A DNA stretch of 64,000 bases. It comes from Halomonas binhaiensis (lineage in GTDB: Bacteria > Pseudomonadota > Gammaproteobacteria > Pseudomonadales > Halomonadaceae). The position numbers and the translations under genes are program-made. The notes under the pieces are model-generated. The model did not search any database and was not told the DNA's origin. It saw only the letters and a program-made list of their open reading frames with translations. The stretch spans positions 4,464,001 through 4,528,000 of the forward strand of contig NZ_CP038437.2 of the NCBI RefSeq assembly GCF_008329985.2, read 5' to 3'. Shown piece after piece: positions 61,328 through 63,691 of this stretch (its first letter is position 1; every line of letters begins with the position of its first letter).

Positions 61328-62245
61328 ATGGCAGGTATCGCCGAAGCATTAGGACCTTTGTTTCTTCTCATCTTGCTTGGTGCTGTGCTTGGGGCCCTGC
61401 GCATCCCCGGCGGGGATTTCTGGACGCGCATGGAGAAACTGATCTACTTCCTGCTATTCCCCGCCATGCTCATCGCCACCCTGGCGCGGGCAGACATTTC
61501 ACGAGTACCTGTCGTCAGCATTGCAATAACCCTGCTGGGTGCCATGGCCGTATTCAGCGCTCTGCTCTGGTGGGCCAGGCCTCGACTGGGTCTGACGGCT
61601 GCCGCCTTCACCTCTGTCTTCCAGGGGGCTGTTCGTTTCAACACCTACGTCGGTGTCGCTGGTGCCGCGGCCCTGCATGGCTCCCATGGCGCTACGGTTG
61701 CAGCTGTGGCATTGGCCTTGATGATTCCCGTCGTCAATGTGCTCTGCGTACTGACCTTCATTGCCGCAGGAACTCTCGGCCGCTCCGGCTTCTGGAAGAG
61801 CCTCGGCGCACTGGTTCAGAACCCTTTGATACTGGCCTGTCTTGCAGGTATCGGGTTAAACCTCTCAGGCATTGGCCTTCCTGGATGGAGTGCCGGTAGC
61901 CTGGAGCTTCTGGGAAGAGCCGCCTTGCCTTTGGGGCTAGTAGCAGTGGGTGTTGCACTCCGGCCTCACGCCTTGCTTCGCAGGGATCTAGGTCTATGGG
62001 TCTCGAGCTTGGTCAAGCTCGTCCTGATGCCTGTACTGGTCCTCATATTGGGTTGGGTGTTTGGCCTGGACAGAGTCAGCCAGGATGTGGCCTTGCTGTT
62101 CGCTGCCCTGCCTACAGCAACGTCGGCCTACATCCTGGCCCGACAGCTTGGTGGCGACGCCGATCTCATGGCAGGGTTGATCACCGCTCAAACACTGCTG
62201 GCCATGCTGACACTACCACTGTGGATGCGTCTGGTAGGAAGCTGA
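61328..62245 (+). CDS. AEC-family transporter
   Basis: A 305-residue protein with about 10 helices of the auxin efflux carrier/malonate permease type: LGPLFLLILLGAVLGALR at the start, the FQGAVRFNTYVGVAG segment, and LPTATSAYILARQLGGD near the end. Substrate unknown, possibly an organic acid. AAGGGAG lies before the ATG. Confidence 0.88.
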   Translation: MAGIAEALGPLFLLILLGAVLGALRIPGGDFWTRMEKLIYFLLFPAMLIATLARADISRVPVVSIAITLLGAMAVFSALLWWARPRLGLTAAAFTSVFQGAVRFNTYVGVAGAAALHGSHGATVAAVALALMIPVVNVLCVLTFIAAGTLGRSGFWKSLGALVQNPLILACLAGIGLNLSGIGLPGWSAGSLELLGRAALPLGLVAVGVALRPHALLRRDLGLWVSSLVKLVLMPVLVLILGWVFGLDRVSQDVALLFAALPTATSAYILARQLGGDADLMAGLITAQTLLAMLTLPLWMRLVGS

Positions 62246-62296
62246 AAAGCATTCTGGCCAGGCAGAGCTTGGCAAAAAAACCTGAATAAAAAAAAG

Positions 62297-62336
62297 TCTC
62301 ATTCATGTTGACGAGTAAATGAGAATGGTTTAGTTT
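62297..62336 (+). promoter_or_regulatory. Promoter with Fur-box-like spacer, sRNA copy 1
   Basis: -35 TTGACG (62308-62313), 17-bp spacer, -10 TAGTTT (62331-62336). The spacer contains AAATGAGAATGGTTTA with the Fur half-site TGAGAAT. TCTCATT (62297-62303) and AATGAGA (62318-62324) form an inverted repeat across the -35. Confidence 0.7.
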
Positions 62337-62342
62337 CAATTC

Positions 62343-62460
62343 ATCGGCGTTTAATGAGCCGCCGGTGCCAGACACAAGGCTTGCCAGTCGTTGTCTGGTT
62401 TCTCCTCCTCATTGCTAGTCACGGTCCTTTCGCCGCTCCTGAATCAGGAGCGGCTTTTCT
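62343..62460 (+). ncRNA. Predicted Fur-regulated small RNA, copy 1
   Basis: A non-coding unit of about 118 nt from the predicted start near 62343 to its terminator. Predicted fold: a 5' stem (ATCGGCG/CGCCGGT), a second stem CCAGACA...TGTCTGG, an unpaired stretch with TCTCCTCCTCATTGCTAGTC that could pair with Shine-Dalgarno regions, then the terminator. About 95% identical to copy 2. Layout resembles the iron-responsive PrrF and RyhB RNAs. Homology is by eye; no structure was computed. Confidence 0.72.
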
Positions 62461-62465
62461 TTTTT
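62432..62465 (+). terminator. Terminator of sRNA copy 1
   Basis: A perfect 10-bp stem GCCGCTCCTG/CAGGAGCGGC with loop AAT, then TTTTCTTTTTT. Confidence 0.92.
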
Positions 62466-62590
62466 CTTCCACCACTGCGTGATGGCTTAGCGACATGACG
62501 CAATCATCTTTCGATACGGCTCTTCATTGGCGAAACGGAAAGATGAAACAGACAGGTAAAACGGCACAGCAAACGCATAAATAAAAAATA

Positions 62591-62631
62591 TTCTCGTTTG
62601 CGTTGACGTCTAAATGAGAATGGTTTAACTT
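62591..62631 (+). promoter_or_regulatory. Promoter with Fur-box-like spacer, sRNA copy 2
   Basis: -35 TTGACG (62603-62608), 17-bp spacer, -10 TAACTT (62626-62631). The same AAATGAGAATGGTTTA sits in the spacer. ATTCTCGTTT upstream is an imperfect inverted copy of AAATGAGAAT. The region before it (62466-62590) shows no other feature. Confidence 0.7.
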
Positions 62632-62637
62632 CAATTC

Positions 62638-62754
62638 ATCGGCGTTTGATGAGCCGCCGGTGCCAGACACAAGGCTTGCCAGTCGCAGTCTGGTTTCTCC
62701 TCCTCATTGCTAGTCACGGTCCTTCGCCGCTCCTGAATTCAGGAGCGGCTTTTT
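62638..62754 (+). ncRNA. Predicted Fur-regulated small RNA, copy 2
   Basis: A second unit, 295 bp downstream of copy 1, differing from it at about five positions over 115 nt. The second stem loses one pair (CCAGAC...GTCTGG). The pyrimidine-rich unpaired region TCTCCTCCTCATTGCTAGTC is unchanged, indicating selection on it. No open reading frame or ribosome site is present. It lies between the AEC transporter and convergent trmB. Confidence 0.72.
62726..62754 (+). terminator. Terminator of sRNA copy 2
   Basis: Stem GCCGCTCCTGAA/TTCAGGAGCGGC forms a perfect palindrome, so a 10-bp stem with a 4-nt loop, followed by TTTTT. Confidence 0.92.
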
Positions 62755-62838
62755 AGTATCGACTACGAGAGAAATAGCGGTATCGCCTGGAGAAACACGC
62801 TTTTGCCTGGCTTGGCAGGGGGTCAATTGCTGCGTGGG

Positions 62839-63594
62839 CTAGTCGCGGCGATAAATCAGATCCCATACCCCATGTCCCAGACGTTCCCCACGAGCCTCAA
62901 ACTTGGTCAAGGGCCGAAAGTCCGGGCGAGGCACATAAGGGGAGGTTTCAGGCTCTGCTGTGTTGGTATAGCCGGGAGCAGCATCCATCACCTCCACCAT
63001 CCACTCTGCATAAGCCTCCCAGTCGGTTGCCATATGCAAGGTACCTCCCGCTTTCAAGCGGGTGCGAATCAACTCGACAAAGGCAGGCTGTACAATACGG
63101 CGTTTGTGATGTTTCTTCTTTGGCCAGGGGTCAGGAAAGAACAACTGGAATGTCGTCAGGCTGTCGGCAGGCAAGCATTGCTCAAGCACCGCCAAGGCAT
63201 CTTCACGGTACACACGGATATTGGTCAGCCCTCGCTTGTCCGCTTCATCCAACAGTTTGCCGACCCCCGGTGCATGAACTTCAATACCGATAAAGTCGAC
63301 TTCCGGATGCCGCTCGGCTTGTTCAATCAGCGACTTCCCCATGCCGAAGCCCACTTCCGCCACGCGAGGGGCAACACGGCCAAATAACGTATCCAGGTTT
63401 TGAGGACCATCAGCAATGGTGAGACCTAAACGCGGCCAAACTTCTTCCAGTCCACGGGTCTGCGCTTCCGTCATGCGTCCGGCGCGGATAACGTAGCTCT
63501 TGATACCTCGACGATGCAATGGAGCATCAGGAGATTCTGGGCCTGTTGTCTTGGACGCAGAAGAACCTTCGTCCTGGTGTTGGGGATCCGTCAT
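62839..63594 (-). CDS. trmB: tRNA (guanine-N7-)-methyltransferase
   Basis: A 251-residue SAM-dependent enzyme that forms m7G46 in tRNA. The SAM site [12 protein letters not shown] and the [15 protein letters not shown] motif are clear. The start at ATG 63594 fits the family; the N-terminal 30 residues are hydrophilic and variable. The thiG gene lies upstream on the same strand, 97 bp away, the usual order. Confidence 0.95.
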
Positions 63595-63691
63595 ACAGGG
63601 ACATACTCTATGAATCTTGAAAAAAGGACTCAACGGCGGACCTTCTGGCGTCCGCCACCAAGCTCAGCATGTAAATTGGACAGCCTTGTCA

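Follow-up and report, generated by a model that had tools for sequence, protein, structure and literature searches.

Between the gene of an AEC-type membrane transport protein and trmB, the window (the whole analysed stretch of 64,000 nucleotides from Halomonas binhaiensis, position 1 being its first letter) contains an intergenic gap of 593 bp that holds two small RNA (sRNA)-like units. The units are direct copies (62276–62429 and 62571–62724) with a period of 295 bp and 89% identity across 154 nt, and their terminator pieces also match each other. The initial annotation had described a tandem pair with a shared architecture here, comprising near-identical TTGACG promoters, two stems, an unpaired core and terminators, and all of these elements are present in both units. 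Each unit would be transcribed from its predicted start site into an RNA of about 120 nt. The features of the locus are as follows.

61328–62245, plus strand: gene of the AEC-type membrane transport protein (PF03547), the upstream neighbour
62297–62324, no strand: inverted half-sites TCTCATT ... AATGAGA flanking the −35 element of unit 1 (from sequence), a possible extra Fur contact
62308–62336, plus strand: promoter of unit 1; −35 TTGACG at 62308–62313, −10 TAGTTT at 62331–62336, spacer of 17
62317–62332, plus strand: Fur-box-like AAATGAGAATGGTTTA of unit 1, at the position where PrrF genes and other Halomonadaceae genera have stronger boxes
62340–62469, plus strand: sRNA body of unit 1, matched by model R2; PrrF model match at 62308–62462
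62342–62367, plus strand: hairpin SL1 of unit 1; 6 of 7 pairs changed on both sides among 18 relatives
62368–62398, plus strand: hairpin SL2 of unit 1; forms in 40 of 40 units folded singly, 2 of 7 pairs changed on both sides
62399–62426, plus strand: pyrimidine-rich core of unit 1; 62408–62426 is CTCATTGCTAGTCACGGTC, invariant or nearly so across 40 relatives
62432–62454, plus strand: intrinsic terminator stem of unit 1; 10 pairs and a T run, from terminator scan and covariation
62603–62631, plus strand: promoter of unit 2; −35 TTGACG at 62603–62608, −10 TAACTT at 62626–62631
62612–62627, plus strand: Fur-box-like AAATGAGAATGGTTTA of unit 2, from sequence and box scoring
62635–62764, plus strand: sRNA body of unit 2, matched by model R2; PrrF model match at 62603–62757
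62703–62721, plus strand: core CTCATTGCTAGTCACGGTC of unit 2, from sequence
62726–62749, plus strand: intrinsic terminator stem of unit 2; 10 pairs and a T run, from terminator scan
62839–63633, minus strand: trmB (TIGR00091), the convergent downstream neighbour

Both bodies fold better than all 200 of their dinucleotide shuffles (z = −4.07 for unit 1 and −3.51 for unit 2). Unit 2 folds into two hairpins plus the terminator, while in the lowest-energy fold of unit 1 SL1 is opened and its loop is paired with the core. In 1.4 kb the terminator scan gave 3 terminator-like sites, and shuffles gave 1.7 (sd 1.4); the terminator count alone therefore says little. From 28 family loci, 40 of 42 distinct units were aligned, with L014 and L024 omitted, and 18 of these, well aligned in SL2, were used for covariation and for R2, a covariance model of Halomonadaceae bodies that excludes the promoter. 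The three helices are paired in 93.6% of the cells of the 18-row alignment, compared with 30 to 46% when the partners are slid by 1 to 3 columns. Both sides changed in 11 of 22 pairs, 3 of the 8 terminator pairs among them. Four of five covariation measures lie above nearly all shuffles, and the fifth, further pair types, shows no excess over shuffles in these 18 rows. SL1 and the terminator carry compensatory changes. SL2 is weaker in this alignment (83% paired, partly through out-of-register rows) and forms in each of the 40 units when folded alone. A middle stem drawn by RNAalifold was rejected, since MAFFT had placed SL2 out of register and SL2 forms in the single-row folds. Overall, the units have the PrrF architecture of two hairpins, an unpaired core and an intrinsic terminator, though the lowest-energy fold of unit 1 departs from it.

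The absence of coding potential, also claimed at the outset, agrees with the homologues. A frame running from ATGAG through the core of unit 1 was rejected because of homologue stops and indels not in threes, as judged by eye; in L012, for example, an in-frame stop follows shortly after ATGAG (by eye). Additionally, the lengths of the homologue rows differ by non-multiples of three, which argues against coding.

To place the units, we turned to Rfam. A scan of the window at the gathering threshold gave no matches. In a permissive scan of 551 nt, the PrrF model (RF00444) covers both units over positions 1–150 of 150, with 41.4 bits (unit 1) and 39.1 bits (unit 2), which do not reach the gathering score of 90; the E-values are 1.2e-5 and 3.8e-5 in the 551 nt, and 2.5e-5 and 8.0e-5 in the whole own genome. 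The initial annotation had named PrrF and RyhB as the families to compare, and RyhB is absent from the permissive scan's 10 matches (E up to 10), as is NrrF. The other Rfam rows (ylbH, ar14, snoRNAs and others) were rejected, with E of 0.011 and above.

R2 provides an Rfam-independent test. It matched 24 of the 293 genomes of the order, 12 in Halomonadaceae and 12 outside. All 12 places outside the family overlap an RF00444 match, three of which lie above the gathering score (G491, G453 and G472), with modest R2 E-values of 1.8e-4 to 8.1e-4 under strict filters. Under these filters R2 missed 9 of the 12 order genomes whose PrrF exceeds the gathering score, and it matched all 10 over-gathering PrrF loci (L062–L071) when those were searched alone. 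RF00444 itself matched 47 of the 293 order genomes, 12 above the cut-off, and none of 14 control genomes; several further families of the order have RF00444 matches that stay below the threshold. In the class sample, 3 of 274 genomes gave a match, all three within the order. Judging from its PrrF scores, family f21 is presumably Pseudomonas-like. Furthermore, the core grades from CTCCTCATCAGGCTAATCACGGT in PrrF via CTCCTCATCAAGCTAGTCACGGT in other genera of the family (L038 and L042) to CTCCTCCTCATTGCTAGTCACGGT in the window. Full-length matches in both directions together with intermediate cores speak for homology rather than chance likeness, and the evidence favours both units being divergent homologues of PrrF that score below the Rfam threshold.

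R2 matched 239 of 250 Halomonadaceae genomes, covering 22 of 24 genera, with one to five matches each, and a DNA query matched 198 of the 250. Two or more R2 matches were found in 67 of 250 genomes (picked by eye), and G174 has the highest number, five; degenerate copies may account for some of the weak matches. R2 gave no match in 11 of the 250 family genomes, six of g5, three of g3, one of g19 and one of g1. A scan of named genomes for the 19-nt core returned at least 119 stretches, and the 80 matches listed carry the names Halomonas, Vreelandella, Billgrantia or Halovibrio. Among these 80 listed loci (up to 8 kb each), 72 contain a homologue of the transporter and 53 contain TrmB; many of them end before trmB, and a few share one contig. 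At L095 and L133, two copies lie about 1,330 bp apart, compared with 136–356 bp in other multi-copy loci, which suggests a possible insertion between these siblings.

We then examined the promoters. The 17-nt spacer of each unit contains AAATGAGAATGGTT. The −10 hexamers TAGTTT and TAACTT are poor, and a sigma-70 consensus scan found no promoter at the locus. After removal of 7 matches at places already counted, the 99 R2 matches in the loci left 92 units for promoter analysis; TTGAC followed by ATGA[GT]AA is located upstream of 70 of these 92 body matches, although R2 was built without the promoter. The consensus of 51 family promoters (loci L003–L043, window not counted) contains a TTCgcaTTT element upstream and AAATGAGAA where PrrF genes carry near-perfect boxes. 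Boxes were scored against what we take to be the E. coli 7-1-7 Fur consensus. The window boxes reach 8 of 14 by hand count, their right half being degenerate, and within the 75 nt preceding a window unit the highest-scoring stretch reaches 9 of 14, a score attained by 452 of 3000 random 75-mers. The boxes of other Halomonadaceae genera (L038–L043) score 10 to 12 of 14, and several PrrF genes above the gathering score carry AAATGATAATGATTATTATT, which scores 13 of 14. The window box thus occupies the PrrF location in the −35/−10 spacer with a conserved left half and a weak score of its own. The own box scores weakly and the boxes of relatives at this place strongly; Fur control of both units is therefore a prediction from box position and descent.

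Downstream units of PrrF-like arrays at L018:1716–2217, L077 (183-bp spacing) and L150 (136–140 bp spacing), all in Vreelandella-named or related loci, have no recognised TTGAC/Fur promoter; such units may depend on read-through or on another promoter.

Going beyond the homology, architecture, family-wide conservation, shared neighbourhood and covariation demonstrated above, we consider with good confidence that the two units are tandem sibling sRNA genes homologous to Pseudomonas PrrF1/PrrF2 with a predicted Fur-repressed, iron-sparing mode of working, and the pair probably acts as an iron-sparing regulator. When iron is plentiful, Fur-Fe would bind AAATGAGAAT between the −35 and −10 elements and block transcription. 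Under iron starvation, both RNAs would be made, ending at their terminators. The unpaired core UUUCUCCUCCUCAUUGCUAGUCACGGU would then pair with the ribosome-binding or start regions of target mRNAs, probably with Hfq. These mRNAs are predicted to encode iron-using or iron-storing proteins, so that pairing would spare iron.

Alternatively, the PrrF homologues could be set mainly by another regulator here, or could no longer be tightly Fur-controlled. The window box is no better than many random stretches, with its degenerate right half, and in relatives no such promoter precedes some of the downstream array copies; however, AAATGAGAA belongs to the consensus of the 51 family promoters and sits at the site of the near-perfect PrrF boxes, and we regard this alternative as unlikely. 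The initial annotation had left open whether the units belong to PrrF or to an independent Fur-controlled family that became PrrF-like by convergence on an anti-Shine-Dalgarno core. The sub-threshold Rfam score fits such convergence, as does the absence of an RF00444 match in 4 of the 12 R2-positive family genomes of the order sample (G010, G033, G047 and G058, all of g11). Yet the full-length model matches run in both directions, and the graded core intermediates, which include TCACGG, not an anti-Shine-Dalgarno motif, already point to a chain linking the loci. PrrF homology is favoured by the full-length match, the reciprocity of R2 and the intermediates, and an independent family is highly improbable.

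It is harder still to credit that the units act in cis, as a terminator or leader of the AEC transporter or trmB, or are an inert repeat, even though they follow immediately on the transporter gene and have strong terminators at their ends. Each copy has its own TTGAC promoter, a nearly invariant unpaired core and covarying hairpins, and trmB is convergent, so the units are not a trmB leader.

To identify putative targets of the PrrF-like pair, we compared the leaders of sdhC, SOD, aconitase-type, leuC and ferritin-family genes with 51 background leaders of the window, whose start codons were guessed by a simple rule. The proteins were searched with Pfam families, plus TIGR02333 for AcnD, and one AcnB locus was left out of the leader comparison. 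The names leuC, acnA, SodB-type and bacterioferritin are our presumptive assignments from length or N-terminus, an MxFELPALPY N-terminus being taken as the SodB-type mark. In the own genome, three of eight leaders have duplex energies below all 51 background leaders, namely leuC (−31.3), the SodB-type SOD (−29.9) and bacterioferritin (−28.7), and the SodB-type SOD leader also shows more ungapped complementarity to the 28-nt core than any of the 51. All three pairings overlap the Shine-Dalgarno region, so any anti-Shine-Dalgarno core would favour them. The sdhC, first SOD, acnA-like, AcnD and second ferritin leaders of the own genome are unremarkable against the 51 (energy percentiles: sdhC 22nd, acnA-like 69th, AcnD 84th and first SOD 69th). 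For the wider set, five second-SOD loci were scored together with nine ferritin-family loci. Three of six SodB-type leaders lie above all 51 background leaders in complementarity and three below all 51 in energy, while four of eight bacterioferritin-type leaders have energies below all 51. Strong core pairing is predicted for the bacterioferritin leaders L286 (G143, −37.0) and L282 (G177, −29.7), the latter with AAGCAATGAGGAG.

For sdhC, GCCGTGAATAGCAA spans the GTG start, and its score against the 19-nt core is above 51 of 51 background leaders in 10 of 12 genomes. In the own genome (G000, L195) and G240, a changed codon (GTGAAAAGC versus GTGAATAGC in the other 10 of 12) weakens the complementarity, and 3 of the 51 background leaders score as high as sdhC of the own genome. 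A simple Shine-Dalgarno search at the sdhC GTG start found none in the 12 genomes. CCGTGA occurs at or near the presumed GTG start in 30 of 30 genomes (L334–L362 and L195), one of them Pseudomonas-like. This site is also present in 7 of 7 genomes without an R2-detected sRNA; it is therefore old, and its conservation is no proof of pairing.

Among close relatives, 8 of 10 AcnD leaders pair well; in this group the paralogue row L262 had no site, and L272 and L273 were excluded for want of a recognisable start. In the family set (30 loci, given for 38 genomes above the cut-off), 2 of 30 AcnD leaders do so, and AcnD was rejected as a conserved target. For the targets suggested in the initial annotation the predictions are mixed: a SodB-type SOD and a bacterioferritin are favoured in the own genome, sdhC in most relatives and less here, and aconitase in some relatives only. 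The candidate targets here would be the SodB-type SOD, bacterioferritin and sdhC, with the predicted SOD pairing supported in the own genome. For comparison, acnB, m-acnA and sdhD are reported as de-repressed in P. aeruginosa prrF deletions (PMC2851614), and PrrF is reported to have a negative effect on sodB (PMC13104616).

The pair might also form a self-gated, dosage-tuned iron-sparing switch, in which the SL1 loop would hide the seed within the RNA or between siblings, a model that we consider unlikely. The SL1 loop UU[GA]AUGAG is invariant except at its third position across the 40 aligned units and is complementary to CUCAUU of its own core. With the real loops, CUCAUU stays unpaired at a mean probability of 0.68, versus 0.84 with permuted loops. 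The loop–core pairing has a probability of 0.59 for unit 1 and 0.21 for unit 2, exceeding 0.3 in 7 of 40 units, and the loop and core sides of this self-pairing hardly vary among units. If the model were true, a loop gained in the window's PrrF branch, together with tandem copies of which some lack a recognised promoter, would make this more than a plain PrrF pair.

PrrF is described as a Pseudomonas RNA with an Azotobacter homologue, and tandem prrF genes are reported as limited to P. aeruginosa plus a single strain from each of two other species (PMC4211561, PMC2851614). The Halomonas units resemble PrrF1/PrrF2 (RF00444) in the TTGAC promoter, the Fur-box-like element in the −35/−10 spacer, the two hairpins, the terminator, the sibling pair and the unpaired CTCCTC..GCTARTCACGG core; the tandem arrangement recalls P. 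aeruginosa (PMC2851614, PMC4211561). In contrast, the SL1 and SL2 sequences are not alignable by eye with those of PrrF, the core carries an additional CTC and reads TTGCTAG where PrrF has CAGGCTAA, the units score below the gathering threshold and have a 295-bp period with separate promoters, and relatives carry up to five matches. ArrF of Azotobacter vinelandii is described as an iron-repressed PrrF homologue (PMC2851614). RyhB of enterobacteria is alike in principle, being Fur-repressed and iron-sparing, and PrrF and RyhB are reported to have no sequence homology (PMC4211561). NrrF (Neisseria; PMC2851614) and BrrF (Burkholderia; PMC7377471) are functional analogues; BrrF is reported to occur only in Burkholderiales and to lack a Fur box of its own (PMC7377471).

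No description of a native Halomonadaceae PrrF turned up in the accessible portions of the open-access literature listed for Halomonas sRNA, Fur, iron, Hfq and PrrF. Halomonadaceae are used for industrial PHA production. The family would gain a native candidate for iron sparing, an sRNA whose core is nearly invariant and which occurs in a natural series of one to five copies. The P. aeruginosa PrrF1 scaffold is reported as a synthetic tool in H. bluephagenesis (PMC13414033, PMC12164125, PMC13101641); a native PrrF relative could interfere with this tool, or serve better. The family-wide relatives are also a reason for rebuilding the Rfam PrrF model.

At L059:1319–1422 and 1501–1620, and similarly in L060 and L061, a degenerate second PrrF-like element without the GCTAGTCACG core or a Fur box adjoins a weak match (E 0.004). 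The loop of this match, TTGATGAGGAG, is complementary to the PrrF-type core, a possible decoy or sponge arrangement.
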